Source: Rhizobium sp. FKL33
GTDB lineage: Bacteria > Pseudomonadota > Alphaproteobacteria > Rhizobiales > Rhizobiaceae
Length of the DNA stretch: 64,000 nt
Direction: 5' to 3'
Assembly (NCBI RefSeq): GCF_005222915.1
Contig: NZ_STFX01000006.1
Location: 1 to 64,000 of the forward strand
Shown: piece by piece, positions 17,339 to 36,168 of the stretch
Position numbering within the stretch: the stretch's first letter is position 1
Layout: every line of letters begins with the position of its first letter
Program-made: the position numbers and the translations under genes
Notes under the pieces: generated by a model
The model's database searches: none
Told to the model about the DNA's origin: nothing
The model's input: the letters and a program-made list of their open reading frames with translations, nothing else

Positions 17339-18205
17339 TCAGGCGCGCCGACGCTTGGGGGTGACGCCATAAGCTTTCTTGAAGGCGACGGAGAAGTTGG
17401 ACGGATTGGCGTAGCCCGCCACGAAGGCGGCCTGGGCGATGGTCGCGCCGTTCTTCTCCAGCTCTTCGCGCGCGTGTTCCAGCCGCTGATGGCGGATGAA
17501 TTCGAACAGCGTGATGCCGAACGAGTCGCGGAAATGGCGCTGGATCGTGCTGGCGCTGGCGCCCGTATCCCGGGCGATCAGGTCGATCGTGAGCGGATTG
17601 AACAGATTGTCCAGCACATAGTCGCGGACCTTCTCGCTCTGACGCATTGCCGAAAGTGCAGGCTTGTCCGACCGGCCCTCGCGCTTGCCATCCATGATCG
17701 AGCCGCATGCCAAGCATAGCAGCTCAAGCGCACGGGCGCGCTGGTGCAGTTTCTGCATTTCGATGCTCATTCCCGGCGGCGGTTCCAGAATGTCGCTCGC
17801 AAGCTGGAGCGCATGTTTCGGCAGTTGCCAGTAATGATGATTGAGATGCCGGCCGACGAATTCGTCGAGCTCCGGCGACCGCATGTCGGTATCGATCTGC
17901 ATGTCCTGGATCCAGCTCCTGGGAGCTGCGATCATGATCTTCTGCAGCGTATTTTCGGACGTCGGCAGATGTTTCAGGACCGAATTGCGCGTCAGGTTGA
18001 TCAGCAATCCGATTGGCCGGCTCGTGTCACCCTCGCCGACGGCGATGTCGAAGCGCCTGTCATCGATGATGAAACTCTGCGCGCCCTTCAAATACAGCAT
18101 TAGCTGAAATTTCGGCGACAGGTCGTCGTTCTGCGACAGCAGATGCCTTTTCCTACGTCCGTCCAGAACGCCGAGATTGATCCCGCCTGAGAAGTGTTCG
18201 AGCAT
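17339..18205 (-). CDS. AraC-family transcription regulator of the siderophore locus
   Basis: A 288-residue regulator with a C-terminal AraC double helix-turn-helix. KVRDYVLDNLFNPLTIDLIARDTGASASTIQRHFRDSFGITLFEFIRHQRL forms the first motif region and IAQAAFVAGYANPSNFSVAFKKAYGVTP the second. The N-terminal part is a ligand or partner domain I could not classify. By position it resembles PchR/YbtA-type activators that sense the ferric siderophore (inference). The ATG at 18205 has GAGG at ideal distance; an ATG four codons upstream (18217) is the alternative. It is divergent from the TonB receptor, with the shared intergenic region holding the promoters. Confidence 0.85.
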   Translation of the reverse strand: MLEHFSGGINLGVLDGRRKRHLLSQNDDLSPKFQLMLYLKGAQSFIIDDRRFDIAVGEGDTSRPIGLLINLTRNSVLKHLPTSENTLQKIMIAAPRSWIQDMQIDTDMRSPELDEFVGRHLNHHYWQLPKHALQLASDILEPPPGMSIEMQKLHQRARALELLCLACGSIMDGKREGRSDKPALSAMRQSEKVRDYVLDNLFNPLTIDLIARDTGASASTIQRHFRDSFGITLFEFIRHQRLEHAREELEKNGATIAQAAFVAGYANPSNFSVAFKKAYGVTPKRRRA

Positions 18206-18347
18206 GGCATACCTCATTCACACATGGACAGTCCCAGTATGCCGATTCAATGACGCTGAAAATCGCGATGCCCGCGGTTGCCCGTGTAAAACGGTCCATT
18301 TGACGCTCTCTCAAAGGTTTTTGACGTTTGCGGCAAATGGCTCGCAA

Positions 18348-18377
18348 TCGACAAGCTTCTCCTCCCTTCTATATAGA
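18348..18377 (+). promoter_or_regulatory. Candidate sigma-70 promoter of receptor operon
   Basis: TCGACA at 18348-18353 (one mismatch from TTGACA) is followed after 16-18 bases by a TATATA/TATAGA stretch at 18370-18377. It points toward the receptor gene starting at 18458 and is directly followed by the candidate iron box. This was read by eye only. Confidence 0.45.
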
Positions 18378-18392
18378 TGATTATGAAAGTCA
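18378..18392. promoter_or_regulatory. Candidate RirA iron-responsive operator (IRO box)
   Basis: TGA-TTATGAAAG-TCA fits the rhizobial IRO box pattern TGA-N9-TCA with an AT-rich core, which is bound by the iron-sulfur repressor RirA. It lies just downstream of the candidate -10 region and 65 bases before the receptor start codon, where binding would block transcription in iron-replete cells. By chance such a pattern appears about once per 4 kb, so position and gene content are the main support. Confidence 0.5.
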
Positions 18393-18457
18393 AGTTTTCG
18401 TGAAGCCGGCCGCAGGGATGCCGTTGGCCAGTTTTGTCACAGGGGCAGAGTAGAAAA

Positions 18458-20671: not shown

Positions 20672-20673
20672 GA

Positions 20674-22287
20674 ATGATGGAGAAGCAAACCGTGGGGATA
20701 GCCGTTTCCATCGCCGTCGGACTGGCCGTCTTTGGCCAGGCCGCGGCCGGGGACGACGCACCCCGCGCGCTGAGGCCCGGCACGGCCGTCACAGGCGAGA
20801 TCGCTGCAGAGGAGAGAGCACAGCTCTTTCCCCTCGCCAGCCGCCAAGGTGACTTCGTGCAGGGCGTGATCGACGTAAAGGGTGGCCCGGTCGACCTCGA
20901 TGTGGTCGACCGGGCCAGCCGCACCCTGCGCCGGCTCGCGGCGAAGAGCGCGGGTCGAACCACCTTTCTTTTCATCGCGGGCGAAGGCGATGCACTCAGG
21001 CTGACGGCGTCGAAAGAAGGCGCTTCCTATAGCCTGGAAATCGTCAAACAGTTTGCGGTCACCGAGCAGGCGCCGCCGCCGCCCACCTATCTCAGCCCGG
21101 CCGTCGCCGCCGCCGCAGCAGCAGCACGGGACGGCAAGGGCACGGACGCTTTCTGGGCGCGCATAGCGCGCGATGGCACGCCTCTCGTCGAGCCATCCTC
21201 CGATCGCATGCGTATCGTCACATTTCTCTATCGCGGTGCGAGCCGGAATGTCCGCATCCTCGGCGCGCCGTCGGCGGACCATGATCCGCTGGAACATGTC
21301 GACGGAACCGATATCTGGTTCAAAACTTATCTGCTGCCGGCTTCGACCCGGCTGTCCTACCAGATCGCGCCCGATATACCCGAGATTCCGGGCACGGCGC
21401 GCGAGCGCCGCGTGGCGATCCTGGCGACGGCACAGGCCGACCCGCTCAACCGTTTTCCATGGCCGGCCGATGCCAGTGACCGGTTCAACCTCTCCTCGAC
21501 CTTCGCGCTTGACGGCGCGCCGGCGCAGCCCTTCCTCGCCAAGCGCAAGGTCGACAAGGGCAAGCTCGTGGATTTCGAGATCGAGAGCCCGCGCCTCGGC
21601 AACACAAGAACGATCACGCTCTATACGCCGCCGCATTTCTCGCCTGCCAGGAAGGACAACGTGCTGCTGTTCCTGTTCGACGGCGATGCTTACCAGAGCA
21701 AGGTTCCCACGCCCACGATCCTCGACAATATGATCGCCGATGGCGCCATCCCGCCCGTGGTTGCGGTTCTCATTCCCAATCCGGATCGTGAGGCGCGCGG
21801 CCGCGAATTGCCCGACAGCGCCGATTTCACCGCTTTCCTCGCCGATGAACTCTTGCCGGCGGTTGCCGCGCGTACCGGCTTGAAGCCGGCGCCATCCCGC
21901 ACGATCCTTGCCGGATCGAGTTTCGGCGGCCTTGCTTCGGTGAGGATCGCGCTGGCGCGGCCGGACCTGTTCGGCAATGCGCTTAGCATGTCAGGTTCGT
22001 TCTGGTGGCATCCCGACAGCGCGCCGGCAGAGGACGGCGAGTATATCGCGGCCTTGGTGGCCAGAAACCCGAAGGCGGGCATACGGGTCTTCCTCAGCGC
22101 CGGTCTGTTCGAGGTCAAGGGACCAGGCGCGGATGCGGGCATTCTCGATTCCAACCGCCATCTTCGCGATGTCCTGCAGGCCAGGGACTATGAAATCCAC
22201 TACCGCGAATACGCCGCCGGCCACGATTACCTCGTTTGGCGCGGGATCCTCTCGGATGGCTTGATCGCTCTCTTCGGCCGTCGCTGA
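20674..22287 (+). CDS. Periplasmic Fes-like siderophore esterase
   Basis: A 538-residue protein with a signal peptide (hydrophobic stretch ending GQAAA), an N-terminal beta-rich segment (about 25-140) that resembles pre-peptidase domains, an enterochelin-esterase N-terminal region, and a C-terminal alpha/beta hydrolase of the Fes type. The Ser motif is LAGSSFGGLAS near residue 415, followed by SGSFWWHPD, with a late GHDYLVWR histidine. It would cut the ester backbone of the imported ferric tris-catecholate. The signal peptide places it in the periplasm, as for Campylobacter Cee or Pseudomonas PfeE rather than cytoplasmic E. coli Fes. Two ATG codons occur in tandem; the first is used. Confidence 0.88.
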   Translation: MMEKQTVGIAVSIAVGLAVFGQAAAGDDAPRALRPGTAVTGEIAAEERAQLFPLASRQGDFVQGVIDVKGGPVDLDVVDRASRTLRRLAAKSAGRTTFLFIAGEGDALRLTASKEGASYSLEIVKQFAVTEQAPPPPTYLSPAVAAAAAAARDGKGTDAFWARIARDGTPLVEPSSDRMRIVTFLYRGASRNVRILGAPSADHDPLEHVDGTDIWFKTYLLPASTRLSYQIAPDIPEIPGTARERRVAILATAQADPLNRFPWPADASDRFNLSSTFALDGAPAQPFLAKRKVDKGKLVDFEIESPRLGNTRTITLYTPPHFSPARKDNVLLFLFDGDAYQSKVPTPTILDNMIADGAIPPVVAVLIPNPDREARGRELPDSADFTAFLADELLPAVAARTGLKPAPSRTILAGSSFGGLASVRIALARPDLFGNALSMSGSFWWHPDSAPAEDGEYIAALVARNPKAGIRVFLSAGLFEVKGPGADAGILDSNRHLRDVLQARDYEIHYREYAAGHDYLVWRGILSDGLIALFGRR

Positions 22288-22328
22288 CCCGGATCGCTCA
22301 CTGCCAGAAAAATTAGAAAGGCTCAGAC

Positions 22329-23273
22329 ATGTCGAAATCAGGATTCATGCGTCGTGCGATGCTTGCTGCGCTATTCGGCGCCGTCCTGACAGGCGGCGCA
22401 CCCATCGGCTCTGCCATCGCGGAACCGATCGAGGTCCGGCATTTCCAGGGTACGACGACGCTCGAAGGCCGCCCGTCGCGGGTCTTCGTCTACGATCTCG
22501 GCATTCTCGACATGCTGGATGCGCTCGATGTTCCCGTGCGTGGTGTGCCAGGCTCGAATGTCCCGCTGTCGCTGTCGAAATACAAGGCGGACAGCTATGT
22601 GAAGATCGGAACGCTGTTCGAACCGGACTACGAGACAGTCAATGCGGAGAAGCCCGACCTGATCCTGATCGGGCCGCGCACCAGCGAGAAATATGCCGCA
22701 CTGTCGGCGCTCGCGCCCGTCGTCGACCTGACGGCCGACAGCAACCATTTTCTCGACAGCGTCGAAACCAATGCCCGCACACTCGGCAAGATCTTCGGCA
22801 AGGAGGCAGAGGTAGAAGCCGACATCGCCGCGCTCGGCAAATCCATCAACGACCTGCGGTCGGAGACGAAGACGATGGGCAACGGGCTTGTGATTCTGGC
22901 CACCGGCGGCAAGATCAGTGCTTACGGTCCGAAGTCGCGATTCGGCGAACTTCATGCGGAGTTCGGCATTGCGCCGGCAGACCCCAATCTGGCGGTTGCC
23001 GTGCATGGCCAGGCGATCTCCTTCGAATATATTCTGGAGGTCAACCCCGACTGGCTCTTCGTCATCGACCGCGATGCCGCCGTGGCCGGTCATGCCCAGA
23101 CGGCTGACAAGCTGCTCGACAACGAGCTTGTGCGACGAACTCGTGCGTGGGCGACCGGCCGCGTCGTCTACCTCGATCCGGTGAAGATGTATCTGACAAG
23201 CTCGAGCCTGCGCTCCCAGCAGGGGATCGTCGACGAACTCATCGCCGCGATCCGGCAGAAGTCAAAGTCGTGA
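22329..23273 (+). CDS. CeuE/VctP-like siderophore-binding protein
   Basis: A periplasmic binding protein (314 aa) with an N-terminal signal peptide ending near AIAEP. The family blocks are RVFVYDLGILDMLDAL near residue 51, EPDYETVNAEKPDLILIG near 98, VHGQAISFEYI near 225, NPDWLFVIDR near 239 and VVYLDPVKMYL near 279. His226 and Tyr288 fall at the positions that in C. jejuni CeuE (His227, Tyr288) complete the iron shell of tetradentate bis-catecholates. With the periplasmic esterase upstream, this suggests capture of linear hydrolysis products. It follows the esterase by about 41 bases. Its permeases and ATPase lie on the other strand at 14582-17263. Confidence 0.92.
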   Translation: MSKSGFMRRAMLAALFGAVLTGGAPIGSAIAEPIEVRHFQGTTTLEGRPSRVFVYDLGILDMLDALDVPVRGVPGSNVPLSLSKYKADSYVKIGTLFEPDYETVNAEKPDLILIGPRTSEKYAALSALAPVVDLTADSNHFLDSVETNARTLGKIFGKEAEVEADIAALGKSINDLRSETKTMGNGLVILATGGKISAYGPKSRFGELHAEFGIAPADPNLAVAVHGQAISFEYILEVNPDWLFVIDRDAAVAGHAQTADKLLDNELVRRTRAWATGRVVYLDPVKMYLTSSSLRSQQGIVDELIAAIRQKSKS

Positions 23274-24294: not shown

Positions 24295-24388
24295 CAATGG
24301 ATGCGCGGGCCAATTCCTCCGGTCTTGTCGTCGGTCGGAGGCAGGAAGACGCGGTCATTGCGTTGTTCAGGCCCAATCACCAGACTCC

Positions 24389-24414
24389 AGGTTGGTCTAC
24401 CACTTGACCAACCT
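24389..24414. promoter_or_regulatory. 9-bp inverted repeat upstream of toxin-antitoxin pair
   Basis: AGGTTGGTC and GACCAACCT flank an 8-base spacer, centred about 65 bases before the antitoxin start. Antitoxins of this class usually bind palindromes at their own promoter, so this is a plausible autoregulatory operator. A site for a GntR-type regulator from the lost neighbouring sequence is the alternative. Confidence 0.45.
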
Positions 24415-24465
24415 CGGACCTCCTCCTATCCTGGTGTTGAAACTCCAGAAAATCGGAGAATAGCG

Positions 24466-24705
24466 ATGACTGTCACCGTAAAGGTCGCCGAGGCGAAAAC
24501 CCATCTGTCAGACCTGTTGGCAAGGGTTGAGGCCGGTGAGGATTTCATCATTGCCCGCGGCAATGATCCCATCGCCAAATTGGTGGCGATCGACGAACGC
24601 CGCCAGCGCTTGGCGGCAATCGAGGCCGTCCGGGCTTTGCGCGCCCAGTCCAAGCCGGTGACTGCCGAAGAAATCCAGGCGTGGAAGCAGGAAGGCCGCC
24701 GCTGA
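24466..24705 (+). CDS. Phd/YefM-type antitoxin
   Basis: A 79-residue antitoxin. The N-terminal VTVKVAEAKTHLSDLLARVEAGEDFIIARGNDPIAKLV is the Phd/YefM DNA-binding fold. The C-terminal charged tail (RALRAQSKPVTAEEIQAWKQEGRR) would wrap the toxin. The frame is open further upstream, but the ATG at 24466 has GGAGA at good spacing and gives the standard size. The stop overlaps the toxin start by one base (TGATG), the usual coupling. Confidence 0.9.
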   Translation: MTVTVKVAEAKTHLSDLLARVEAGEDFIIARGNDPIAKLVAIDERRQRLAAIEAVRALRAQSKPVTAEEIQAWKQEGRR

Positions 24706-25124
24706 TGGCGTTTGTGGTTGACGCCTCGATAGCCGGCGCCTGGCTTTTGCCCGATGAGGAAAATGCGCTCGCCGAGCAGGCGATGGCGCGAATGATCGAT
24801 GAAGACGTCGCAGCGCCGGATCTTTTGCGCCACGAAATCCGGAGCATCCTCCTAAGCGCGGAACGGCGCGGCAGAATCTCCGACGATTTTGTCCATGCCG
24901 CGCTGAGCCGCTTTCGCGGACTGCCGCTTCAATTCGCGGGTCCTTCGGACGACACGGAGGTGGTGCGGCTGTCGCGCAAACACCGCCTGAGCGCCTATGA
25001 CGCCGCCTATCTGGCTCTCGCCGTCCTCGAACAGTTGCCGCTCGCCACGCTCGACCGCCGATTGGCGGACGCCGCACGCGCCGAGGGCGTTGTCGTTTTG
25101 GAGCCGAAACAGGGAGAGCATTGA
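24705..25124 (+). CDS. VapC-type PIN-domain toxin
   Basis: A 139-residue PIN ribonuclease. Acidic active-site residues are in place: Asp in FVVDASIAGAWL near residue 6, Glu in LLRHEIRSILL near 43, and Asp in SAYDAAYLALA near 97, with a late ATLDRRLADAA segment. It is expected to cut RNA, in known VapCs often tRNA, and to be held by the antitoxin encoded just upstream. The ATG at 24705 overlaps the antitoxin stop. Position beside IS and RND remnants suggests it came with or stabilised a mobile segment. Confidence 0.9.
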   Translation: MAFVVDASIAGAWLLPDEENALAEQAMARMIDEDVAAPDLLRHEIRSILLSAERRGRISDDFVHAALSRFRGLPLQFAGPSDDTEVVRLSRKHRLSAYDAAYLALAVLEQLPLATLDRRLADAARAEGVVVLEPKQGEH

Positions 25125-25239: not shown

Positions 25240-27306
25240 TCAAACCCGCAGCGCCGCGCCATCGCAAGGATGCGCCAGCAATTCCTCCAGCTCAGGATCA
25301 AGAAGCAGCACGGAGATCGAAGCGCCGACCATATCGATCGACGTGCAGTAATGGCCGATCCAGTTGACCGCGATCGTCACTTGCTTGGCGGACAGCCGCT
25401 CCTCGATGCGGCGATAGAGAATGTAGAGCTCCATCATCGGCGTCGCGCCGAAAGAATTCACCAGCACAGCGACGCGATCGCCCGGGACGGGCTTCATTTC
25501 CGCGAAAATCTTGTCCATCACCATGTCGACGATGTCATCCGCCGTCTTCAGCTTTTCACGTATGACGCCTGGCTCGCCATGGATTCCCATGCCGATTTCC
25601 ATTTCGTCCGCGCCGATTTCGAAATTGTAGCGTCGGGTTTGCGGCAGCGAACAGGGTTCCAGGGCAACCCCCAATGTAAAGGTGCGCTCATTCGAGCGGC
25701 GCGTAATCGCCGCGCAAGCGTCGAGATCCAGGCCGCGATCGGCAGCGGCGCCGGCGATCTTGAAGGCGAATAGATTTCCGGCAACGCCGCGCCGGCCCTC
25801 GCGGTCCTCAATATTGGCGGAGGCGATGTCATCGGTGGTGATGACGGTTCGTACGGGAACGCCATGTTCGGCCGCCATTTCGGCGGCCATATCAAAATTC
25901 ATGACGTCGCCGTGATAATTGCCATAAACGAACAAGACCCCTGCCCCGCCATCGACAGCCTTGACGCATTCGAAGATCGGATCGGGCGGCGGCGAGGAAA
26001 ATACGTTGCCGACAGCCACCGCATCGGCGAGCCCCTTGCCGACATACCCGAAAAAGCAAGGCTCATGACCCGATCCGCCGCCGATTACGATCCCCACCTT
26101 TCCCGGTCGCGGCCCGTCGCGGGCGATTAGCGCTCGCGGATAGTTCTGCAGGACATAGAGATGCCTGCCATAGGCAGCGGCAGCGCCGGCCACCATCTCG
26201 TCGATCACATCCTGGGGATCGTTGATGAATTTCTTCACCTTGTCCCGCGTGTTGAAGCCCGAAGCGGGTTCGGTCCGCTGGCGCGGCGCAAGCTTGGCGT
26301 CGATGTCGGAAACACCATCGGCGCGCAGGATTCCCCGCGCGGTGACGGCATCGGTGATGAGCACGGTGACAAGCTGGCCACGCAGCGCGCCGAGGATCGC
26401 GGGCACCTTGTCCGCTCCGCCGGCCACACCGATGCGGGTGGGAACCGCCCTGAGTTGATCGAACGAAATGCCGATTACTCGGTTGTCGAGGGGCCCAGCC
26501 ACGCGACGGCCGCGCTCATCGATGAAATGTCCCGCCACGACACCGATCGCCTTGTTGCCGAGATAATGTTGTAGCGCGCCGGGCGCATCGAGAAGCCCGC
26601 TCTGATGGACGGTGGAATTCGGCCGAAGCGAAGCGATCGAGAAGATCGTCTTGTTGACAGAAGACAGTCGGGCAAGTTGTTGACTGAGCAACGTCTCGTC
26701 TTCCAGCAGCCGCCTGACCTCCGACGAGGAAACCAGAATGGGCGCGAGGATATTTTCGCAGCGGCCGCCGACCGCGGCGGCGAAGGTCCAGGCGCATTGC
26801 TGCGGGGTGGAGCTCAGGGTCGAAGCGGTGCCGCCGGTCGCCTGAAACACCGTCACGTCCTGAAGGCCGTTGAGCTTTAACCTCTCTCCGACGGCAAGAA
26901 CCGTCCGGCCCCAGACTACGGCAAGGCGGTCGCCGGATCGGACGATTTTCTCGAGGGCCTGCGCGCCGACAGCGCCGAGCCGGTCGATTAGAGCATCGCC
27001 GTCGTCACGGGTGGGCGCGACGATGCAATCATGCAGACCAAAATGTCGCTTGAGTTCCTGGGCGAGATACAAGGACGCCAGCCGCGCCGGATCCAGACTG
27101 ATCTGAATGATCCCGCGCTCCCTGGCGTCAGCGAGATAGGCGTTCACCGTGGCGCGTGAGATGCCCATCGTGACGGCGATATCGCTCTGGGTCAGGCCTT
27201 CTTCGTAGTAGAGCCAGCATGCCCAGATATAGGGATCGGCTCCAAACCGGAGCGGGATGTCCATTGCAGCGGCTGCGCCACTCTCGATCGGCTTTTCCCT
27301 TGCCAT
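25240..27306 (-). CDS. SorC-type regulator fused to a DhaK domain
   Basis: One uninterrupted 688-residue frame holds two families. Residues about 25-342 are a SorC/DeoR-type regulator: a helix-turn-helix (GLTQSDIAVTMGISRATVNAYLADARERG, about 37-65), then the sugar-binding domain with LAVVWGRTV and the late ADGVSDIDAK block. Residues about 352-688 are a complete DhaK (dihydroxyacetone kinase substrate subunit). The active-site residues are kept: His414 in GGGSGHEP, Asp467 in YGNYHGDVMNF and His576 in GMGIHGEPG, the last being the residue that binds dihydroxyacetone covalently in E. coli DhaK. It is the last gene of the polyol operon, 163 bases after dhaL. It may sense a triose or tetrose ketose directly, act as a kinase subunit with DhaL, or both. 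Confidence 0.92.
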   Translation of the reverse strand: MAREKPIESGAAAAMDIPLRFGADPYIWACWLYYEEGLTQSDIAVTMGISRATVNAYLADARERGIIQISLDPARLASLYLAQELKRHFGLHDCIVAPTRDDGDALIDRLGAVGAQALEKIVRSGDRLAVVWGRTVLAVGERLKLNGLQDVTVFQATGGTASTLSSTPQQCAWTFAAAVGGRCENILAPILVSSSEVRRLLEDETLLSQQLARLSSVNKTIFSIASLRPNSTVHQSGLLDAPGALQHYLGNKAIGVVAGHFIDERGRRVAGPLDNRVIGISFDQLRAVPTRIGVAGGADKVPAILGALRGQLVTVLITDAVTARGILRADGVSDIDAKLAPRQRTEPASGFNTRDKVKKFINDPQDVIDEMVAGAAAAYGRHLYVLQNYPRALIARDGPRPGKVGIVIGGGSGHEPCFFGYVGKGLADAVAVGNVFSSPPPDPIFECVKAVDGGAGVLFVYGNYHGDVMNFDMAAEMAAEHGVPVRTVITTDDIASANIEDREGRRGVAGNLFAFKIAGAAADRGLDLDACAAITRRSNERTFTLGVALEPCSLPQTRRYNFEIGADEMEIGMGIHGEPGVIREKLKTADDIVDMVMDKIFAEMKPVPGDRVAVLVNSFGATPMMELYILYRRIEERLSAKQVTIAVNWIGHYCTSIDMVGASISVLLLDPELEELLAHPCDGAALRV

Positions 27307-27469: not shown

Positions 27470-28108
27470 CTAACGGTCGAAAAACTCGCAAATTTCCGCC
27501 ACGATGATCGCCGCAGAGGCGGCTCCGGGATCGATATGACCGAGCGACCGTTCACCGAGACGAGACGACCGTCCCTTGCTCGCGACCATCGCCTTTGTCG
27601 CTTCCGCGCCATCTTCGGCCGCCTTGCGGGCGGCGGCCAGCGCCTCGGCTGCCGGCTTGCCGGCTTCACGCGCCTGCGCGACGGCGATCGCAGCCGGTTT
27701 CCATGCGTCAATCATGGTCTTGTCGCCGAGTTCCGCCTTGCCGCGGTCCTCAATACCCCGCGCCATGGCTTCGATAACGGACAACGCTTCATCGAGCGTC
27801 ACAGTCTCCTTTCCTTTGAAGGTCGCGCCGGCGCGAAGGAAAGCCGTCGCATAAAGCGGTCCCGATGAGGCTCCGACGGCATTGAGGAAGGATTTCGCAG
27901 CGGTGTTGAACACATCGGTCGGCGTGGCCGCATCCGTCGCGAGCGTATCCAGCGCCTTCACGATCGCGCCGAAGCCCTGCTCCATTGCGATACCGTGGTC
28001 GGCGTCTCCGATGTGACCGTCGAGTTCGCAGAGATGGTTACGCTCGCCCTCGATCCGGCTTGAGATCTTTCGAAACATGGCTTTGAAATCTGCGGCGTCC
28101 AGTTGCAT
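27470..28108 (-). CDS. dhaL: Dihydroxyacetone kinase ATP-binding subunit DhaL
   Basis: This 212-residue protein is the nucleotide-binding partner of DhaK. It shows the magnesium-binding Asp motif in GHIGDADHGIAM (residues about 31-42), an AVGASSGPLYATAFLRA loop, and the C-terminal GRSSRLGERSLGHIDPGA motif that closes over ATP. No PTS-linked DhaM gene is nearby, so the kinase is probably ATP-driven. It begins 10 bases after dhaK and is followed by the SorC-DhaK gene. The substrate could be dihydroxyacetone, but erythrulose kinases belong to the same family, so triose versus tetrose cannot be decided here. Confidence 0.92.
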   Translation of the reverse strand: MQLDAADFKAMFRKISSRIEGERNHLCELDGHIGDADHGIAMEQGFGAIVKALDTLATDAATPTDVFNTAAKSFLNAVGASSGPLYATAFLRAGATFKGKETVTLDEALSVIEAMARGIEDRGKAELGDKTMIDAWKPAAIAVAQAREAGKPAAEALAAARKAAEDGAEATKAMVASKGRSSRLGERSLGHIDPGAASAAIIVAEICEFFDR

Positions 28109-28118
28109 AACCTCTCCC

Positions 28119-29126
28119 TCACTTCACCTGAAACATCGCACAGTCACAGGGATGATCCAGCATTTCGGTCAGTTCCGCATCAAGATGCAGCACGGTGACG
28201 GAAACGCCGGCCATTTCCAGTGACGTGCAATAGGGACCGACCCAGGTCTTGTAGACATCAAGGCCCGCTTCCGCGAGACGCTGGTTGACCCGCCGGTTGA
28301 CGATGTAAAGCTCCATCAGCGGCGTCGAGCCGAGCGAGTTGACAAGCACGGCGACCTTTTCTCCGCTTTTTGCGGACATTTCCGCGAAAATACGGTTCAT
28401 GATATCATCGACAATGGCGTCAGCGCTGGCGAGCTTTTCGCGGGCGACGCCCGGCTCGCCATGGATGCCCATGCCGACTTCCATTTCATCATCGCCCATG
28501 GAGAAATTCCATTTCCGCGTTTGCGGCAACGAACAGGCGGACAGAGCAACCCCGACGGTGAATGTCCGATCATTGGTCTTTCGGGCGATGCGCTCGCAGT
28601 CGTCGATGGACATCATCTTGTCTGCGGCCGCCCCGGTCAGCTTGAAGACGAAGAAATTGCCCGCAACGCCTCGTCGCTTGTCCCGTTGATCGCGCGGAGC
28701 CGACGCAATGTCGTCGGTGGTCAGCACCGTCCGCACCTCGATGTCATCGAGCGCCATCATCTCGGCGGCCATATCGAAGTTCATCACGTCGCCGGCATAG
28801 TTTCCATAGAGATAGAGAACCCCCGCGCCGCCATCAACCGCACGCGTGCAGGACATGATCGGGTCCGGCGGCGGCGACGCGAAGACGTTGCCTACCGCGC
28901 AGCCGTCCGCCAAGCCTTTTCCAACAAAACCCACGAATGTCGGCTCGTGACCGGAGCCTCCACCGACGACAATTCCCACCTTGCCCTTGCGGGGTCCCTC
29001 GCGGGCAACGATGGCGCGCGGATTATCCTCGACATAAGTGAGGATATGGGGGTGAGCGGCGAGAATGCCGTCCACCATTTCGTCAACGACGCGGGCGCCA
29101 TCATTGATGATCTTCTTGGTCTGCAT
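28119..29126 (-). CDS. dhaK: Dihydroxyacetone kinase substrate subunit DhaK
   Basis: A 335-residue DhaK with the full active site: VGGGSGHEPTFVGFVGKG near residue 54, GNYAGDVMNFDMA near 108, TTDDIAS, and GMGIHGEPGVAREKL near 219 with the covalent His. It would bind a short-chain ketose, and DhaL would phosphorylate it. It is visibly related to the DhaK half of the regulator two genes downstream, sharing long stretches such as AVDGGAGVL and the SLPQTR block, which suggests duplication within this locus. It lies between a PfkB kinase gene and dhaL. Confidence 0.94.
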   Translation of the reverse strand: MQTKKIINDGARVVDEMVDGILAAHPHILTYVEDNPRAIVAREGPRKGKVGIVVGGGSGHEPTFVGFVGKGLADGCAVGNVFASPPPDPIMSCTRAVDGGAGVLYLYGNYAGDVMNFDMAAEMMALDDIEVRTVLTTDDIASAPRDQRDKRRGVAGNFFVFKLTGAAADKMMSIDDCERIARKTNDRTFTVGVALSACSLPQTRKWNFSMGDDEMEVGMGIHGEPGVAREKLASADAIVDDIMNRIFAEMSAKSGEKVAVLVNSLGSTPLMELYIVNRRVNQRLAEAGLDVYKTWVGPYCTSLEMAGVSVTVLHLDAELTEMLDHPCDCAMFQVK

Positions 29127-29144: not shown

Positions 29145-30095
29145 CTAACGGACACTGCCGCGAACCGGCTGCGTTTTCATGAATTCCATCACCTGTTCGA
29201 AAGACCGGATACCGGCGTCGGAGCCGAGCCCGGTTGCGACCAGCGCCGCCGAAGCCTGGGCGAAGGACAGCCGCGTTTCCAGATCCATGCCGTGATGCAA
29301 GGCGACCACATAGCCGGCGTCGAAAGCGTCGCCGCAGCCCGTGGTGTCGACGACGTCGATGGCGTAGGCCGGACGCGTCAGCCGCGCGCCGGCCTGATCG
29401 GCATAGAAAGCGCCGTCGCCGCCAAGGGTGAAGACGCAGGCGTTGACGCCCTTGTCGAGGAAGAAGCGCGCGGCGTCCTCGACCGAATTCTGGCCTGACA
29501 TGGCGCAGGCTTCTTCGATCGAAGGCATGAAATAGTCGATATAGGGCAGAAGCGGTTCGACCACCGCAATTGTTCCGGCATTGGCGGCGATGAGATCGAA
29601 CGTCGTGGTACGGCCCCGCTTCTTGGCTTCGGCGAGCAGCTTGCGACTGGGCTCCCCGTCCAGCTTGCGCAACAGGCCGGTGCCGCCGAGATGAATGATC
29701 GGCGGCGCAAGCACCGTGTCATATGCGCTTTCGGGCACGTCGAAATGATTGGATGCGCCGCGCTGATGAAGCGCCGGCCTCTCGCCATTGCGGCGGACAT
29801 TGAGGATGGTCGCCGAGGATGGTACGTTGGACAGCCGCTGCATGCCGGAGATGTCGATGCCGAATTTCTGCATGGTCGCCAGCATGAAATCGGCTTTTTC
29901 ATCGTCTCCGACAGCCCCGACCGCCAGGCAATTCAGGCCCATCTTGGCGATGTCCACGACGGTTCCCCCGGCGGTGCCGGCGACCGTCAGGCGGATTTCG
30001 TCGATGAAATCGACCTGTCCGCCCGGCGGGATGGCGTCGACGGGACGCCCGAGAATGTCCAGAATGTAAAGACCGATGACCGAGACGTCATGCAT
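29145..30095 (-). CDS. PfkB-family carbohydrate kinase
   Basis: A 316-residue ribokinase-fold sugar kinase. The N-terminal GLYILDILGRPVDAIPPGG segment, the glycine pair in TVAGTAGGTVVDIAKMG, and the C-terminal DTTGCGDAFDAGYV (PfkB signature with the catalytic Asp) are all present. The ATG at 30095 is chosen because it is preceded by a perfect AAGGAGGT ribosome site 6 bases away; the frame runs 11 codons further. In this operon it would phosphorylate the imported substrate or an intermediate. The substrate cannot be read from the sequence. Confidence 0.88.
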   Translation of the reverse strand: MHDVSVIGLYILDILGRPVDAIPPGGQVDFIDEIRLTVAGTAGGTVVDIAKMGLNCLAVGAVGDDEKADFMLATMQKFGIDISGMQRLSNVPSSATILNVRRNGERPALHQRGASNHFDVPESAYDTVLAPPIIHLGGTGLLRKLDGEPSRKLLAEAKKRGRTTTFDLIAANAGTIAVVEPLLPYIDYFMPSIEEACAMSGQNSVEDAARFFLDKGVNACVFTLGGDGAFYADQAGARLTRPAYAIDVVDTTGCGDAFDAGYVVALHHGMDLETRLSFAQASAALVATGLGSDAGIRSFEQVMEFMKTQPVRGSVR

Positions 30096-30151
30096 AATGC
30101 TACCTCCTTTCGGGCGACGACGCTTCAAGCCGGCGTCGTTCTGCCCATCCC

Positions 30152-31237
30152 TTATTCAGCATAACCCGCAAGCGAGCCGATCCTCACGCCATCACGATAA
30201 AGGCTCATATGAACGGGATCGACATGCAGATGGGCGGTCGCGCCACGGCCGAAAGCAGGGCGCCCGTCCGTCTTCGCCTTGATTGTCACGCCTTCGACGT
30301 CGAGCGTGACCACAAAGCGTCCGGCGATCGTGACGTTCATGTCGCGGATCACCGCCGGCACGCTGCCGTTTTTCGGAGCGCCCGTCAGAGTCACGTGCTC
30401 GGGCCGGACGCCGATGCGCAGATCGCCGCCAGCATCGCCCAGATCCGTGACAACCAAGGGAAGCGCCGACAACGGCGTCTCCAACTGCCCTCCCCTCACC
30501 CGCGCCGGCGGAAAGTTCATGCCGGGATTGCCGAGAAACCAGCCGGCGAATTCGGTGGCGGGCGTGTCGTACAGCGCGGCTGGCGCGTCATACTGGATGA
30601 TCCGGCCGTCGCGCATCAGCGCCACGCGGTCGGCGAGCGTCATGGCTTCGGTCTGGTCATGAGTGACATAGACGATGGTCTGCCGCAGGCGTTGGGTGAC
30701 AAGCTTGAAGGCCCGGATCAGCAGCAGCTTGGCGTGCACCTCGACATTGGTGGTCGGTTCGTCGAACAATACGATGTCGGAGCGCCGCGCGACAGCCCGA
30801 CCCACGGCGACCTTCTGCCGGCTGCCGGCGTCGAGATCGCCGATGAACAGCTTGCGCTTGTCGCGCATGTCAAGAATGTCGAGCACCTCGTCGATGCGGC
30901 GGGCGCGTTCGGAACTCGACAGCGTCTTGTCCTGTTCGAGCGGCAGCGAGATGTTCTCCTCGACCGACAAGGTCTGGTACATGACCGGATATTGAAAGAC
31001 CATGCCGACATTGCGCTTGCGCGGCGGCAGCGAGCCCATGTCCCGGTCGTCGAACAGGATGCGGCCCGAAGTCGGCTTTTCCAGGCCGACGATCATCCGC
31101 ATCAGCGTCGTCTTTCCGCAGCCGGAGGGACCGAGAAGGCAAGTGACCTGGCCATCGGCGAAGACGGCGTCCATGTCGCGGATGGCGGTGAAAGCGCCGA
31201 ATTTCTTGGTCAGGTTCTGGATGACGATGCGCGCCAT
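30152..31237 (-). CDS. Polyol ABC transporter ATPase with degenerate signature
   Basis: A 361-residue ATPase of the MalK/UgpC class with a C-terminal regulatory OB region. Walker A GPSGCGKTT (near residue 37), Walker B IVLFDEPTT (with catalytic Glu) and the switch VTHDQTEA are canonical. The ABC signature, normally LSGGQ, reads DAGSRQ (near 138), so the sequence that must contact ATP on the partner subunit is lost. The next gene upstream encodes the complementary partner. The operon order resembles the rhizobial glycerol system GlpSTPQV, where two different ATPases also occur. Confidence 0.9.
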   Translation of the reverse strand: MARIVIQNLTKKFGAFTAIRDMDAVFADGQVTCLLGPSGCGKTTLMRMIVGLEKPTSGRILFDDRDMGSLPPRKRNVGMVFQYPVMYQTLSVEENISLPLEQDKTLSSSERARRIDEVLDILDMRDKRKLFIGDLDAGSRQKVAVGRAVARRSDIVLFDEPTTNVEVHAKLLLIRAFKLVTQRLRQTIVYVTHDQTEAMTLADRVALMRDGRIIQYDAPAALYDTPATEFAGWFLGNPGMNFPPARVRGGQLETPLSALPLVVTDLGDAGGDLRIGVRPEHVTLTGAPKNGSVPAVIRDMNVTIAGRFVVTLDVEGVTIKAKTDGRPAFGRGATAHLHVDPVHMSLYRDGVRIGSLAGYAE

Positions 31238-31247
31238 GACCCTCTCC

Positions 31248-32318
31248 TCATGCTCGGGGCTGGCAGCGGCCGAGGAAGCGGCCGGAGCTGTTGTCGAAGA
31301 TCATCACGTCTTCGGCGCGAATGCCGATCTTGACGGGACTGTCGATCGGAGGCGCAAGCTGCCCGGAAGCGGGGTAAGCCGCCGTGAGAGACAGCCCGCC
31401 GACATCGGCATAGAGCACGATTTCGGAGCCGAGATGTTCGACGATGGTCACCTTCCCCTCCAGGCCTTCGGGGGCGCCGACAAGCACATGCTCGGGCCGC
31501 AGCCCCAGAATGAGATCGCTGGTCGAGACGCCTTCGGGCAGGCCGAAGGAAAAGCCGGCGAATTGGGCGCACCCGTCTCGCGCGACGCAATCGATCAGAT
31601 TGGCGCGGGGAAAGCCGACGATCTCCAGGCTGCGCGCCTGTTGCGGCTCGAGATAGAGATCGACGGCCGGCGCATGCTCCACCAGCCTCCCCGCATCGAG
31701 GACCGCGAGCGATTGGGCAAGCGTCAGCGCTTCGAGCGAATCCGAGGTGGCGTAGAAGAAGGTGGTCCGCAGTTCCTCGCAGAGCTGCTTCAACTCATCC
31801 ATCAGCCGTTCGCGGAGCTTGTAGTCGAGGCCGACAAGGGGATCGTCGAGCACGAAGACCTTGGCGTCTTTCATGAGACCGCGCGCCACCGCCACCCGCT
31901 GCTTTTCGCCGCCCGACAGTTGATCAGGCGTCTTCTTCATCAGATGCTTGATCGACAGCATTCCCGCCGTCGCATCCACTTTGCGGGCGATATCCTCGCG
32001 CGGCGCGCCCGAAAGATGCAGCGGATAGGCGATGTTGTCGTAAACAGTCAGATGCGGATAGAGCGCAAAACTCTGCGGCACATAGCCGACATTGCGCTCG
32101 GACGGCGGGGCATGGGTGATGTCGCGCCCGGCGAGGAAGATGCGGCCTTCATCCGCCTGCTCCAGCCCGACCAGCAGTCGAAAGAGGATGGATTTTCCGG
32201 CTTTCGGCGGACCGCAGACCACGGTGAAGCTGCCTTCTTCGACCGCCAGCGACACCTGATCAAGCGCGCGCTTGCCGCGATAGGCCTTGCTGACGGACTG
32301 ATACTCCACTGCATGCAT
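31248..32318 (-). CDS. Polyol ABC transporter ATPase with altered catalytic residues
   Basis: A 356-residue MalK-type ATPase. The signature LSGGEKQRVAVARG is intact and Walker A is GPPKAGKS, but Walker B ends VLDDP (Asp replacing the catalytic Glu) and the switch region reads ATSDSLEA, with Ser where the His belongs. It is thus expected to bind ATP but hydrolyse poorly on its own site, while its good signature completes the other subunit's site. The ATG at 32318 follows the stop of the small membrane protein gene by one base; a TTG at 32330 is an alternative. Confidence 0.88.
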   Translation of the reverse strand: MHAVEYQSVSKAYRGKRALDQVSLAVEEGSFTVVCGPPKAGKSILFRLLVGLEQADEGRIFLAGRDITHAPPSERNVGYVPQSFALYPHLTVYDNIAYPLHLSGAPREDIARKVDATAGMLSIKHLMKKTPDQLSGGEKQRVAVARGLMKDAKVFVLDDPLVGLDYKLRERLMDELKQLCEELRTTFFYATSDSLEALTLAQSLAVLDAGRLVEHAPAVDLYLEPQQARSLEIVGFPRANLIDCVARDGCAQFAGFSFGLPEGVSTSDLILGLRPEHVLVGAPEGLEGKVTIVEHLGSEIVLYADVGGLSLTAAYPASGQLAPPIDSPVKIGIRAEDVMIFDNSSGRFLGRCQPRA

Positions 32319-32319
32319 G

Positions 32320-32619
32320 TCAGCGTCCAATCTGTGCGAAATAAGGGGCGAGCAGAATGCCCAGGCCGAACATCAGGGCGACGACTGCAAGCAGGATCAC
32401 GATCCGCAACAGGCTGCGCCCGACGCTCAAGTCCCGCGGCGTATTGCCGACCGCGATCTGCAACAGCGTCGCGCCGACGAGAATGCCGAGCCCGATGCGG
32501 AAGACCGTGACCGAAAACTGCTGCGCCACCAGAATGATGCCGAGAAGGATGAGCGCCATCAGCACTGCTTCCAGCCGGTCGATGAAGCTGCGCTCGGACT
32601 TGATGTCGTCAGACTCCAT
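32320..32619 (-). CDS. Small membrane protein of the polyol transporter
   Basis: A 99-residue protein with about three hydrophobic segments (roughly 18-34, 38-56 and 70-93) and a charged N-terminus (MESDDIKSER). I recognise no domain. It lies tightly between the ATPase gene (1 base) and the permease gene (1 base). The rhizobial glycerol ABC operon also has a small integral membrane protein (GlpU) among its transporter genes, so a similar accessory role is likely. Confidence 0.75.
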   Translation of the reverse strand: MESDDIKSERSFIDRLEAVLMALILLGIILVAQQFSVTVFRIGLGILVGATLLQIAVGNTPRDLSVGRSLLRIVILLAVVALMFGLGILLAPYFAQIGR

Positions 32620-32620: not shown

Positions 32621-33454
32621 TCACACCTCCCCGCGCACGGTGCCGAAGGTCATGCCGACCAGCAGATATTTCTGGAAGAAGTAGATGAACAGCACCGGTG
32701 GCAGGATGTAGATCGACGTCAGCGCGGATATGAAGGTCCAGTTGAGGCCGCCGTCGGAATAGGCGCCGACCGCGAGCGCATAGGGAATGTTCTGCGTCGA
32801 CACGCCGCCGATGATGAAATTGAACAGAAACTCGTTCCAGACGAAGATCATGTTGAAGATGAAGGCCGCAATGAGCCCTGGCTTCACCTGCGGCAGCACC
32901 ACCCGGAAGATGATATGCGGCCAGGAGCCGCCATTCACACGGCCCGTTTCGTCGAAACGCGTCGAGACGCCGTCGAGAAACCCTTTGAGGATCCAGACCG
33001 AGAACGGAATGGAGAACATGGCGTAGAACAGGATCATCGCCAGATGATTGTCCTTCCAGCCGAAGGCCACATACATCAGATACACGGGCAGGATCACCGC
33101 CGGGCCCGGCAACATGCGGATGGACAGAAGCAGGAACATCAGGAAGTCAGTGCCCTTCGGCTTGAAGCGCGAGAAGCAGAAGGCGGCGAGAAAAGACACG
33201 AAGACCGCGATCACCACCGCCGCCGCCGACAGCAGCACGGAATTTCCGAGCTGCAGCAGAAAGGATGTGTTGGTGGCGAAGAGATCGGCGTAATTGGCAA
33301 GGGTCGGCGAGAAAAACAGTTTCGGCGGCGTCGCCAGAATGTCCTCCCGCGTCTTGAACGACGACAGGATGATCCAGGCCACCGGCGAGAAGAACAGCAG
33401 CGACACGAGCCAGAGCGTGACGTGATAGAGGCGGGCGCGAAGAGTTTCCGACAT
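32621..33454 (-). CDS. Polyol ABC transporter permease (MalG type)
   Basis: A 277-residue inner-membrane permease with about six transmembrane segments. The EAA-type loop that meets the ATPases is GRVNGGSWPHIIFRVVLPQVKPG near residue 190, followed by WNEFLFNFII. The N-terminus (VTLWLVSLLFFSPVAWIILSSFKTREDI) is typical of the MalG class. It pairs with the permease encoded one base upstream. The GlpPQ-like arrangement suggests transport of glycerol or another small polyol (inference). Confidence 0.9.
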   Translation of the reverse strand: MSETLRARLYHVTLWLVSLLFFSPVAWIILSSFKTREDILATPPKLFFSPTLANYADLFATNTSFLLQLGNSVLLSAAAVVIAVFVSFLAAFCFSRFKPKGTDFLMFLLLSIRMLPGPAVILPVYLMYVAFGWKDNHLAMILFYAMFSIPFSVWILKGFLDGVSTRFDETGRVNGGSWPHIIFRVVLPQVKPGLIAAFIFNMIFVWNEFLFNFIIGGVSTQNIPYALAVGAYSDGGLNWTFISALTSIYILPPVLFIYFFQKYLLVGMTFGTVRGEV

Positions 33455-33455: not shown

Positions 33456-34370
33456 TCAGCGTCCTCTGCGGCGACGATTGAGTATGAAGATGAACATCGA
33501 GGTCATCGCGATGGAGATCAGCAGCAGCAGCACCGAATAGGCGGACGACCAGCCCATGTTGAAGCTTTCGAAGGACTGCTTGTTGAGCTCCACCGCCACC
33601 AGACGCGTCGTCTGGCCCGGGCCGCCCTTGGTCATGGGGATGACGAGGTCGAGCGTCTTGAAGCTGTCGATGGTCCGCAGGAGGATGCCGAGCATCAGGA
33701 TGAATTTGCCATGATGCCAGATCACCAGCGAGATGCGCTTCGGCCAGGAAAGGCGATCGATTTCGGCGGCCTCCAGCTCCGCCTTCGGCACCGAGCCGAG
33801 GGCTGCGAGCGTCATCAGCGTCATGAACGGCGTCCACATCCAGCAATCGACCGCGAGCACCGCCCAGAAGGCGATCTGCGGATTGCCGAGGAAATCGATC
33901 GTGCCGGTTGGCGACAACCATCCGACCAGCGCGTTCAGAACGCCGAAAGTCGGGTCATAGATGAAGCGGAAGAAGGTGCCGGTGGCGACGGGGGTCAGCA
34001 CCATGGGCGTGAACAGCAAGGTCAACGCCAATTTGCGGCCGGGCATCTCCTTGGAGCCCCAAAACAGAAAGCCGAGCAGAATGCCAAGCGCGGTCTGAAT
34101 GCCGACGCCCACGCCGACGAACAGGAAGGTTCGGCCGAGATCGCCCCAAATGCCATTCCGGTTGCGGAAAATATCCTGGAAATTCCGGAAGCCGAAGAAT
34201 TCGGGCGGCGTGCCGTTCAGCAGCGAGAATTTGTGAAAGGAAAGTCCCAGCAGCCAGAGCGTCGGGATCGTGTTGAACACGATGAAGAAAGCGAGCACCG
34301 GAGCCAGGAGCGCAAAGATAATGACGCGCCTGTCGTCCTTGAACGCCGAGGGCGGTTTCGTTGACGCCAT
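33456..34370 (-). CDS. Polyol ABC transporter permease (MalF type)
   Basis: A 304-residue permease with six predicted transmembrane segments and the MalF-class N-terminus (IIFALLAPVLAFFIVFNTIPTLWLLGLSFHKF). The coupling loop AAEIDRLSWPKRISLVIWHHGK near residue 216 has the EAA-like pattern. It is separated from the binding-protein gene upstream by a 182-base gap containing a strong hairpin, a common device for keeping permease expression below that of the binding protein. Confidence 0.9.
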   Translation of the reverse strand: MASTKPPSAFKDDRRVIIFALLAPVLAFFIVFNTIPTLWLLGLSFHKFSLLNGTPPEFFGFRNFQDIFRNRNGIWGDLGRTFLFVGVGVGIQTALGILLGFLFWGSKEMPGRKLALTLLFTPMVLTPVATGTFFRFIYDPTFGVLNALVGWLSPTGTIDFLGNPQIAFWAVLAVDCWMWTPFMTLMTLAALGSVPKAELEAAEIDRLSWPKRISLVIWHHGKFILMLGILLRTIDSFKTLDLVIPMTKGGPGQTTRLVAVELNKQSFESFNMGWSSAYSVLLLLISIAMTSMFIFILNRRRRGR

Positions 34371-34552: not shown

Positions 34553-36043
34553 TCAGAGACTGGCGGCCGAGCAGGCGTCGGAGGGACCTTCCTTGGCGAA
34601 ACCATCGTCATAGAGGATTTGCTGCTGCTGGCAGGCGATATAGTCGAGCGCCTGCTTGGCCGAGGCCGTCGAGCCGGTCATGTAGGAGGTGAAACCCTCC
34701 TGCTGGACAGCGAGCATTTCCGAGTAACGCGGATGGTGCCAGAAGTCGCGCGAGCGGCCGGTTTCCAGCATGAACTTGTAGGCGCGGTTCCACGGATTGA
34801 TCTTGTCGAAATCCGGATTGGAGAGCGTCGCCTTGTCGGTGGGGTTGCCGCCGCGCTTGGCGAATTCCAGCGTGGTTTCCGGCAGATACCACCAGTTCAT
34901 GAAGTCGATGGCGACGCGCATCTTCTCGTCGTCATTGAAGGCGTTGAGCACCCAGGGCTGGCCGCCCATGCAATAGATGCGCTTGGCCTGATCGCCCTTG
35001 CCGAATTTCGGCGGCGGCACGACGAGCACCTTGTCCTTGTTCTCGGGGGTGATCATGGCGAGGCCGACGGCCGCCCATTGCAGGCAGGTCGCCACCTTGC
35101 CCTGGGTCCAGACGTCGATTTCCTCGGCGATACCGAAATTGGTCGCGCCCGGCGGCATGTATTTGAGCCAGGATTTGTAGAGTTCCATGGCCTTGGCGTT
35201 TTCGTCGGTGTTGAGAATGCCTTCGACCTGTCCGGTGTTCGGATCCCAGATGTCGCCGCCGCGGCTCCACATGATCGAGAGCTGCGGGCAGGTGCAGAAG
35301 TCGTAGACGCGGCTGTATTGCCATGCGGCGCCCCAGAGACCCTGATCCGGACGCGTGAAGAACTCCATGATCTTCTCGTAGTCTTCGGCGTTGAGGTTCT
35401 CGTATTCCTCGAAGGTCGAGGGGAGCTTCATATTGTATTTGGCCTGGAAGGCGGCCTGTTCCTTGGGGTCCTCGACGAGGTCCTTGCGGACGTAAAGCGC
35501 CTTGGTGTCGCCTTCCTGCGGCAGGCCCCAGATCTGGTCGCTGCCATCGGGATATTTCATATAGGTGTTGACGACAGTGTCGGAATACCAGTCGAGCTGC
35601 AGGTTCTTGTTCTTGGCGATGATGTCGTTGAGCTGCAGGATCCAGCCGGGCTTGGCGAGCGCGCCGAGCCACTGGCTGTCGGAAATGATGATGTTGTATT
35701 CCTGGCTCTTGGTCGCGAGCGAGGTCGCGGCCTTCTGGAACAGATCCGAGAACGGCGCCTCGGCAAAGCCGAAGCTGACGTCGTAGCCGTATCTTTCCTT
35801 CACATAGTCGGCAAACAGCGGCGACATCTTCACGCCGAGCGAAGACGGCAGCCAGCCGGCAATGCCGAGAATGTTCATTTCGATCTTCTTGCCTGCCAGC
35901 GGATGGCTTTCGGCAGCCATCAGCCGGTTGATGAACGGCGCGGACATTGCGCCGGAAAGACCGGCGACCGCCGCGCCTTTCAGTATCGTTCTTCTCGGCA
36001 CGACAAAGCGCGCGCCGGTCTTGTCACCGGAATCCACAGTCAT
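34553..36043 (-). CDS. Polyol ABC transporter solute-binding protein, Tat-type export
   Basis: A 496-residue extracytoplasmic binding protein of the GlpV-like branch. The N-terminus PRRTILKGAAVAGLSGAMSAPFI is a twin-arginine signal. The mature part begins near HPLAGKKIEMNILGIAGWLPSS. Conserved blocks include DSQWLGALAKPGWILQLND near residue 145, GLPQEGDTKALYVRKD near 195, WTQGKVATCLQWAAVG near 320 and GGQPWVLNAF near 375. It has a strong GGGAGGAG ribosome site before the ATG at 36043 and is the first gene of the polyol operon. Similar architecture to the rhizobial glycerol system suggests a small polyol or triose ligand. The exact ligand is unknown. Confidence 0.9.
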   Translation of the reverse strand: MTVDSGDKTGARFVVPRRTILKGAAVAGLSGAMSAPFINRLMAAESHPLAGKKIEMNILGIAGWLPSSLGVKMSPLFADYVKERYGYDVSFGFAEAPFSDLFQKAATSLATKSQEYNIIISDSQWLGALAKPGWILQLNDIIAKNKNLQLDWYSDTVVNTYMKYPDGSDQIWGLPQEGDTKALYVRKDLVEDPKEQAAFQAKYNMKLPSTFEEYENLNAEDYEKIMEFFTRPDQGLWGAAWQYSRVYDFCTCPQLSIMWSRGGDIWDPNTGQVEGILNTDENAKAMELYKSWLKYMPPGATNFGIAEEIDVWTQGKVATCLQWAAVGLAMITPENKDKVLVVPPPKFGKGDQAKRIYCMGGQPWVLNAFNDDEKMRVAIDFMNWWYLPETTLEFAKRGGNPTDKATLSNPDFDKINPWNRAYKFMLETGRSRDFWHHPRYSEMLAVQQEGFTSYMTGSTASAKQALDYIACQQQQILYDDGFAKEGPSDACSAASL

Positions 36044-36134: not shown

Positions 36135-36168
36135 TGATCATGTCCCGTATTTTGTCAATACACGATCA
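36135..36168 (-). promoter_or_regulatory. Candidate promoter and SorC operator of the polyol operon
   Basis: On the minus strand a perfect TTGACA (plus-strand 36153-36158) lies about 110 bases before the first gene. It sits inside a nested inverted repeat: outer arms TGATCATG (36135-36142) and CACGATCA (36161-36168, one mismatch) and inner arms GTATT/AATAC (36147-36151 and 36157-36161). A regulator bound here would cover the -35 element. The SorC-DhaK protein is the obvious candidate, since no other regulator is encoded in the operon. No good -10 was identified at 17 bases. Confidence 0.5.

Follow-up and report, generated by a model that had tools for sequence, protein, structure and literature searches.

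A SorC-type regulator and a complete DhaK domain in one reading frame

The window, the whole stretch of 64,000 nucleotides of Rhizobium sp. FKL33 that we analysed, carries on its reverse strand a presumed operon with the genes of an ABC transporter, a PfkB-family sugar kinase, a free DhaK and a DhaL, followed by a single frame in which a SorC-type transcriptional regulator continues into a full DhaK domain (Table 1). No DhaM was found among the ten operon-region proteins scanned with Pfam and NCBIfam, and the genome's one EIIA-man match lies on a different contig, in a frame of 160 aa. Immediately downstream of the fusion gene, at 24301-25124, are two short ORFs where relatives such as L078 keep a second DhaL; we take this pair to resemble a VapBC toxin-antitoxin. 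Elsewhere in the window, at 14582-23273, the ORF list reads as a siderophore-type cluster (TonB-dependent receptor, esterase, binding protein and FecCD-like transporter).

Table 1 Features of the fusion gene, its operon and the predicted operator
Feature	Position	Strand	Basis and details
SorC-DhaK fusion gene	25240..27306	-	688 aa, one ATG ORF 27306->25240
HTH region, SorC half, ~residues 25-66	27109..27234	-	Pfam matches 31-70 and model helices
Sugar-bind PF04198 effector domain, residues 78-328	26323..27075	-	Pfam
Variable linker, residues 331-356	26239..26316	-	pLDDT, pN
DhaK (Dak1) domain, residues 357-688	25243..26238	-	Pfam, PDB sequence and structure matches
His414 (E. coli DhaK His56)	26065..26067	-	Alignment; invariant in 27-row alignment
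Asp467 (E. coli DhaK Asp109)	25906..25908	-	Alignment; invariant in 27-row alignment
His576 (E. coli DhaK His218)	25579..25581	-	Alignment; invariant in 27-row alignment
DhaL, the genome's only Dak2 match	27470..28108	-	TIGR02365 200 bits vs 138.3; PF02734 in one place in genome
Free DhaK (type A clade), sole Dak1 match in the genome besides the fusion	28119..29126	-	Pfam, tree
PfkB-family sugar kinase	29145..30128	-	Pfam
ABC transporter ATPase 1	30152..31237	-	Pfam
ABC transporter ATPase 2	31248..32330	-	Pfam
ABC permease	32621..33454	-	Pfam
ABC permease	33456..34370	-	Pfam
Extracellular solute-binding protein, first gene of presumed operon	34553..36043	-	Pfam
Operator box 2 (predicted), TCAACAAATGTCAA, 12/14 to TTGACAWWTGTCAA	36124..36137	-	Motif comparison
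Operator box 1 (predicted), degenerate TTGACAAAATACGG, 9/14, exactly 21 bp from box 2	36145..36158	-	Motif comparison

The N-terminal half has the layout of SorC/DeoR-type regulators, an N-terminal HTH followed by a Sugar-bind domain above its curated cut-off (E 1.1e-55, 189 bits vs 27), within which W132-G133-R134 is invariant across 27 aligned fusions. The HTH was matched by several Pfam families at about residues 31-70 (Sigma70_r4_2, E 1.3e-7, and others), and the AlphaFold2 model places helices there at 25-34, 40-47 and 51-63. A PDB sequence search with this part retrieved DeoR (8r7y, 1e-31), LsrR (4go1, 2e-31) and SorC (2w48, 1e-25). The C-terminal part found E. coli DhaK at 1e-80, and Dak1 (PF02733) covers residues 374-683 (E 2.1e-116, 388.6 bits against a Pfam cut-off of 31.4). 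Foldseek on the model, which was built from 27 sequences with a mean pLDDT of 81.7 and a pTM of 0.53, returned DhaK (3pnk, 3pnl, 4lrx), DhaQ (2iu4) and DeoR/SorC/LsrR structures, and the DhaR(N)-DhaK complex is also among the structural matches of the DhaK half. ORF, Pfam and alignment thus agree with an earlier note on this DNA that had read the frame as a single 688-residue chain of a SorC-type regulator and a full DhaK with His414, Asp467 and His576. The same note had proposed two possible ligand sites, the SorC pocket and the DhaK histidine, and indeed both domains are present and the triad is intact. Judging from PDB entry titles, LsrR with phospho-AI-2 and ligand-bound DeoR are among the relatives of the SorC half, and by these family members its effector would be a phosphosugar. 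The linker between the halves has mean pLDDT values of 70, 34 and 53 (residues 331-340, 341-350 and 351-360) and a pN of 0.24-0.34, compared with 0.04-0.23 in the two halves; as it is variable and predicted to be disordered, direct allostery is not indicated.

The fusion recurs across alphaproteobacterial genomes

We sampled 297 genomes of the family to which the window belongs; 36 of them, its own among these, contain a full-length match free of stop codons. In total we collected 59 distinct single-ORF fusions. In a class sample of 385 genomes only the window itself was retrieved at E 1e-110, and a phylum sample of 398 genomes yielded the window and four other fusions, of which G971 and G978 lie outside its family; these are species samples, in which a diverged fusion could fall under the thresholds. 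A search of genome contigs gave at least 80 loci, at least 27 of them with an uninterrupted fusion, and among those listed two (L027, L070) with split halves. Record titles include Rhizobium, Mesorhizobium, Aurantimonas, Aureimonas, Gemmobacter, Stappia and Tropicimonas, and 109 PLSDB plasmid records, pSymB of S. meliloti 1021 among them, match at least 80% of the query; the S. meliloti ortholog occupies pSymB 312533-314569. Because the frame recurs in 36 of the 297 family genomes and the dN/dS of its DhaK half is low (see below), we regard it as real and conserved; that an assembly or sequencing artefact joined two genes has a negligible chance given these genomes, the 59 distinct fusions and the plasmid records. 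The search for the architecture in other genomes that the earlier note had called for rules out a sequencing error.

That note's statement that the form had no description does not hold, since such proteins are already listed in RefSeq as 'bifunctional sugar-binding transcriptional regulator/dihydroxyacetone kinase subunit DhaK' and fusions are carried by more than the one genome. The RefSeq/PGAP products (e.g., WP_223730486.1 and WP_084438665.1) have the same architecture at ~60-66% identity; the annotation amounts to a name only, and the window clade differs in being without a second DhaL. Our literature searches, which mostly did not extend to subscription journals, found no paper on the fused form and none that uses the product name. 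As far as these searches show, rhizobia and other alphaproteobacteria possess in this architecture a class of enzyme-regulator that has been named but apparently not studied.

Operon types and the balance of DhaK and DhaL

We surveyed the neighbourhoods of 60 distinct loci, namely the 59 fused ones and L027, which spans the query with a stop between its halves and is therefore counted outside the fusions. Six loci including the window (type A) combine a solute-binding protein, two permeases, two ATPases, PfkB, DhaK, DhaL and the fusion; three of them (L078, L065, L006) have a second DhaL after the fusion, and the other three (the window, L003, L024) have none. Seven loci (type A') have the type A transporter divergent from a fusion-DhaL pair, with PfkB in six and no free DhaK in the stretch. 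In 35 loci with a close rbs-like transporter (type B), the order is transporter, SDR, DhaK and DhaL1, and next, as a rule, fusion-DhaL2 or DhaL2-fusion. The remaining 11 fused loci have other surroundings.

Counted over the fetched stretches, the number of DhaK domains equals that of DhaL genes in 56 of the 59 fused loci (46 two-two, nine one-one and one three-three). Three loci depart from this: the window and the relatives nearest to it, L003 and L024, each have two DhaKs but a single DhaL. A DhaL partner is thus present near the window's fused DhaK, one for the two DhaKs of the operon, and the whole genome gave two Dak1 matches and one Dak2 match. In the two type A' genomes that were examined (L011, L013), the fused DhaK is the only Dak1 match and a DhaL adjoins it. 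Given the equal gene numbers and these sole Dak1 domains, the fused DhaK of the relatives is probably a working kinase subunit, and the window clade, by its gene content, is the unusual case in which one DhaL is common to two DhaKs.

An intact and constrained DhaK active site

In E. coli DhaK the triad consists of His56, Asp109 and His218, the last being the histidine that forms the covalent adduct; structures of H56 mutants have been solved, according to PDB entry titles. The corresponding triad is intact in all 59 fusions, a count made after two rows wrongly labelled as fusions had been removed. As with the free DhaK, purifying selection acts on the fused DhaK half: against the nearest relatives (L003 and L024), its dN/dS is ~0.05 and ~0.07. 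The idea that the fused DhaK of the window has been decaying since the second DhaL was lost finds no support, as dN/dS remains low. The fused DhaK scores below the NCBIfam cut-off for dhaK1 (TIGR02363, 385.1 vs 406.25 bits), as does the free DhaK next door (393.6 bits), and it is far below the cut-off of the DhaQ model (TIGR02362, 207.3 vs 413.25 bits). The active-site loops at 411-414 and 574-577 have a pLDDT below 50 and are not resolved by the model.

The window clade alone, among the DhaKs compared, has a histidine two residues before Asp467 (the E. coli T107 position), where the others have Ala, Thr, Ser or Val. Only two changes at columns conserved to at least 90% are private to this clade, as counted without L082_KL, L133 and E. 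coli. At the E. coli S54 position, the Ser of GGGSGHEP is found in 102 of 103 free DhaKs, while Thr, Ala or Cys takes its place in 36 of the 49 fused DhaKs that belong neither to the window clade nor to the type A' clade, a change that may reflect a shifted substrate. A further divergent Dak1 domain, 34% identical to the fused DhaK, follows a DhaK-DhaL pair at L082:10034-12593.

Probable origin of the fusion from neighbouring genes

The 59 fused SorC halves form one clade in a tree of 83 rows (support 99/96), whose sisters (99/98) are SorC genes of Pelagibius litoralis (L070) and of an alphaproteobacterial MAG (L027). In both of these, SorC and DhaK are separate neighbours beside the same divergent transporter: in L070 at 9929-10981 and 11046-12044, and in L027 with a TGA at 8397-8399 between the halves. 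Their arrangement is likely the pre-fusion state. A single loss of the stop between neighbours is the simplest history, with fission in L070 and L027 as the alternative.

The DhaK halves gave a less uniform picture. In a quick tree (141/169 rows) the free type A clade took in seven fused DhaKs of the Aurantimonas type, a hint of a second fusion, and in a careful tree of 60 rows (31 of the 59 fused) these seven type A' sequences grouped, when the topology was left free, with free type A DhaKs (94/99). For this tree L065_FUS_15 and L069_FUS_57 were counted as free, as long open frames upstream had made both look fused. A single fused-DhaK clade was not rejected by the AU test (p 0.386), and with the SorC halves in one clade we set two independent fusions aside; a second fusion or a swap of the DhaK is an alternative that we do not favour.

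A paired operator-like box upstream of the transporter operons

Aligned type A upstream regions share a conserved TTGACA and ATGTCAA, which we scored as a palindromic motif, TTGACAWWTGTCAA. Upstream regions were taken from 61 loci (the 60 surveyed and L070), from which 11 without a recognised transporter start and L009 with a short upstream region dropped out, leaving 49. A site matching at 12/14 or better is present in 39 of these, against 0.34 expected from equal-length stretches of the same loci. The motif was derived from the type A, type A' and split loci (12 of 15 with the box), with the rbsA-type regions as test set; there the box occurs in 27 of 34, against 0.1 on average and never more than 1 in 200 mononucleotide shuffles, although the 34 rows are related and so do not count as independent events. 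A second box (at least 9/14) lies at exactly 21 bp in 33 of the 39, while all other spacings from 10 to 45 reach at most 0.21, and the pair stands before transporter operons of two different kinds. In L154, L156 and L166, with the type B operon inverted or moved, the box is still upstream of that operon. A box also lies upstream of dhaK in S. meliloti. At 12/14 or better the box is absent from 10 of the 49 regions, seven of them in the test set and most of them rhodobacteral. The earlier note had proposed DNA binding at 36135-36168; this lies near the boxes of the window, and the positions conserved across species are those of Table 1. We rejected a simple -35 element as an explanation of the box, since the one promoter-like match at this place is on the forward strand and neither the 21-bp pairing nor the second arm would be explained.

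Searched anywhere in the stretch, the box occurs in 50 of the 60 loci and in 14 of 51 unfused loci, ten of the latter being one Mesorhizobium site, and we therefore assign it to a wider SorC subfamily. In L060 a perfect box lies ~90 bp from a free SorC match; among the free SorCs, this one is closest to the clade of fused and split proteins. The box looks like an operator of this subfamily that is older than the fusion and is probably still used by the fused proteins. The window's genome has 33 sites with at most two mismatches, against 6 for the reversed pattern. Its free SorC paralogue at C2:17888-18814 is 39% identical to the fused SorC and has boxes upstream at 18883-18896 and 18915-18928. 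Cross-talk between the regulons of the two proteins is possible, and another SorC regulator of this genome could act at the boxes of 36124-36158. A further 12/14 box lies at 36530-36543, inside the 3' end of a glycerate 2-kinase-like gene upstream of the operon; a counterpart was not found in L003 or L024.

Clues to the substrate

The erythritol/threitol and apiose pathways include phosphorylation of tetruloses. The SDR of the type B loci is a GolD/DthD-like dehydrogenase (in Shinella, 413.8 bits against a cut-off of 286 for the NCBIfam 'GolD/DthD family dehydrogenase'), and one R. leguminosarum type A DhaKL adjoins oiaX. Tetrulose phosphorylation fits this gene context, with dihydroxyacetone as the other candidate; tetruloses as the substrate are our guess, a weak one for the window. 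Of the 51 unfused DhaK loci, 41 have a triose-phosphate-isomerase-like gene in their stretch, compared with 5 of 59 fused loci, the window being without one, and such genes at DhaK loci hint at tetrulose phosphate isomerisation. In Pelagibius a gene of this kind lies between DhaK and DhaL (L070:12014-12802).

A kinase subunit that may control its own operon

The triad kept in 59 of 59 fusions, the constraint on the DhaK half, the pairing of DhaK with DhaL, the sole Dak1 domains of L011 and L013 and the paired boxes incline us, at slightly better than even chances, to read the fusion as a trigger enzyme: a SorC-type repressor of its own sugar-uptake and kinase operon that also carries a DhaK subunit able to work with DhaL. 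Against this reading stand the variable linker, the one DhaL per two DhaKs and the histidine before Asp467 in the window clade, the score under the NCBIfam DhaK cut-off (which the free DhaK shares), the upstream regions without a box, the degenerate box 1 of the window, the boxes at unfused loci and the low-confidence active-site loops. Catalysis with the neighbouring DhaL, as raised in the earlier note, is possible but less straightforward: that DhaL sits at the position which the partner of the free DhaK has in relatives, and the window lacks the other DhaL, the one that relatives with a free DhaK keep beside the fusion.

SorC regulators are tetramers and DhaKs are dimers. A multimer of the fusion would bind both boxes 21 bp apart and repress the operon (repression rather than activation is assumed here). 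A short ketose imported by the ABC transporter would then bind covalently at His576 and be phosphorylated by DhaK with ATP-loaded DhaL, in an operon without DhaM, and the ketose phosphate would enter the SorC pocket and free the operator. Induction would then come from the product that the regulator's own kinase domain makes. As the second DhaL is missing from the window's three-member clade, the fused DhaK there would either share one DhaL with the free DhaK or serve chiefly as a ketose/DhaL sensor. Our boldest version, offered tentatively and as rather doubtful in full, is a self-inducing kinase-repressor: the DhaK loaded by DhaL-ATP would make the ketose phosphate sensed by the SorC half of the same multimer, and in the window clade the free and fused DhaKs would compete for one DhaL, whose occupancy would itself be a regulatory signal.

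Two other accounts start from the same data. The fused DhaK of the window clade may be a sensor without turnover, holding the ketose at His576 and perhaps a bound DhaL and passing that state in cis to the DNA-binding half, much as DhaQ (with DhaS) in Lactococcus or DhaK/DhaL with DhaR in E. coli do in trans. This would suit the only three fused loci with fewer DhaLs than DhaKs, a genome with a single DhaL, the complete free DhaK that adjoins the fusion, the clade-specific histidine and the structural matches to DhaQ and the DhaR(N)-DhaK complex. The whole triad is nevertheless conserved and constrained, just two clade-specific changes fall at well-conserved columns, and the DhaK model outscores the DhaQ model (385 vs 207 bits, with cut-offs of 406 and 413), so we think this account unlikely for the clade; as a general account it also sits badly with L011 and L013, whose genomes have no Dak1 but the fused one, beside a DhaL. 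Alternatively, an ordinary SorC repressor and an ordinary DhaK were simply joined by loss of a stop, with co-expression at a fixed ratio as the sole gain and no cross-talk. The split neighbours of L070 and L027 show a possible route to this, and a disordered, fast-changing linker favours tethering over rigid allostery, as do the pTM of the model and its confident modules either side of the linker. The fused SorC halves nonetheless form one clade across several families and operon types, and of the SorC matches listed from 247 family genomes (at least 44% identity), 26 of 26 lie in fusion-sized frames of at least 692 residues. Such long retention suggests a benefit of the link, and we hold mere joining to be unlikely.

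Relation to known systems and significance

SorC, DeoR, LsrR and CggR likewise combine an HTH with a PF04198 effector domain, and palindromic operators are typical of regulators of this type; the fusion adds the C-terminal DhaK and the paired TTGACAWWTGTCAA boxes at 21 bp spacing. Lactococcus DhaQ works with DhaS, and E. coli DhaK and DhaL act on DhaR. The feature common to these systems and the fusion is a DhaK-fold protein in the control of a dha operon, but there the DhaK-like proteins act in trans on a TetR-type or enhancer-binding regulator, whereas the DhaK of the window is covalently joined to a SorC regulator. The trigger enzymes NadR, PutA and BirA have DNA-binding and enzyme domains in one chain; they have other folds, and catalysis by the fusion would require a second protein, DhaL.

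What is new in this analysis is the single clade of fused SorC halves with its split state, the counts of triads and of DhaL pairing, and the paired operator. The loci form a natural series (own DhaL, shared DhaL and sole DhaK), which, together with the predicted operator and the preserved split state, makes the evolution from DhaK to regulator, as in DhaQ and the control of DhaR, testable within one protein. The predicted operator is also a concrete forecast of the operons under the control of the fusion. If the self-inducing kinase-repressor is true, induction would report flux through the first catabolic step and not the concentration of the sugar. By the fusion, the enzyme that starts the use of a sugar may in these bacteria also govern the genes for its uptake.
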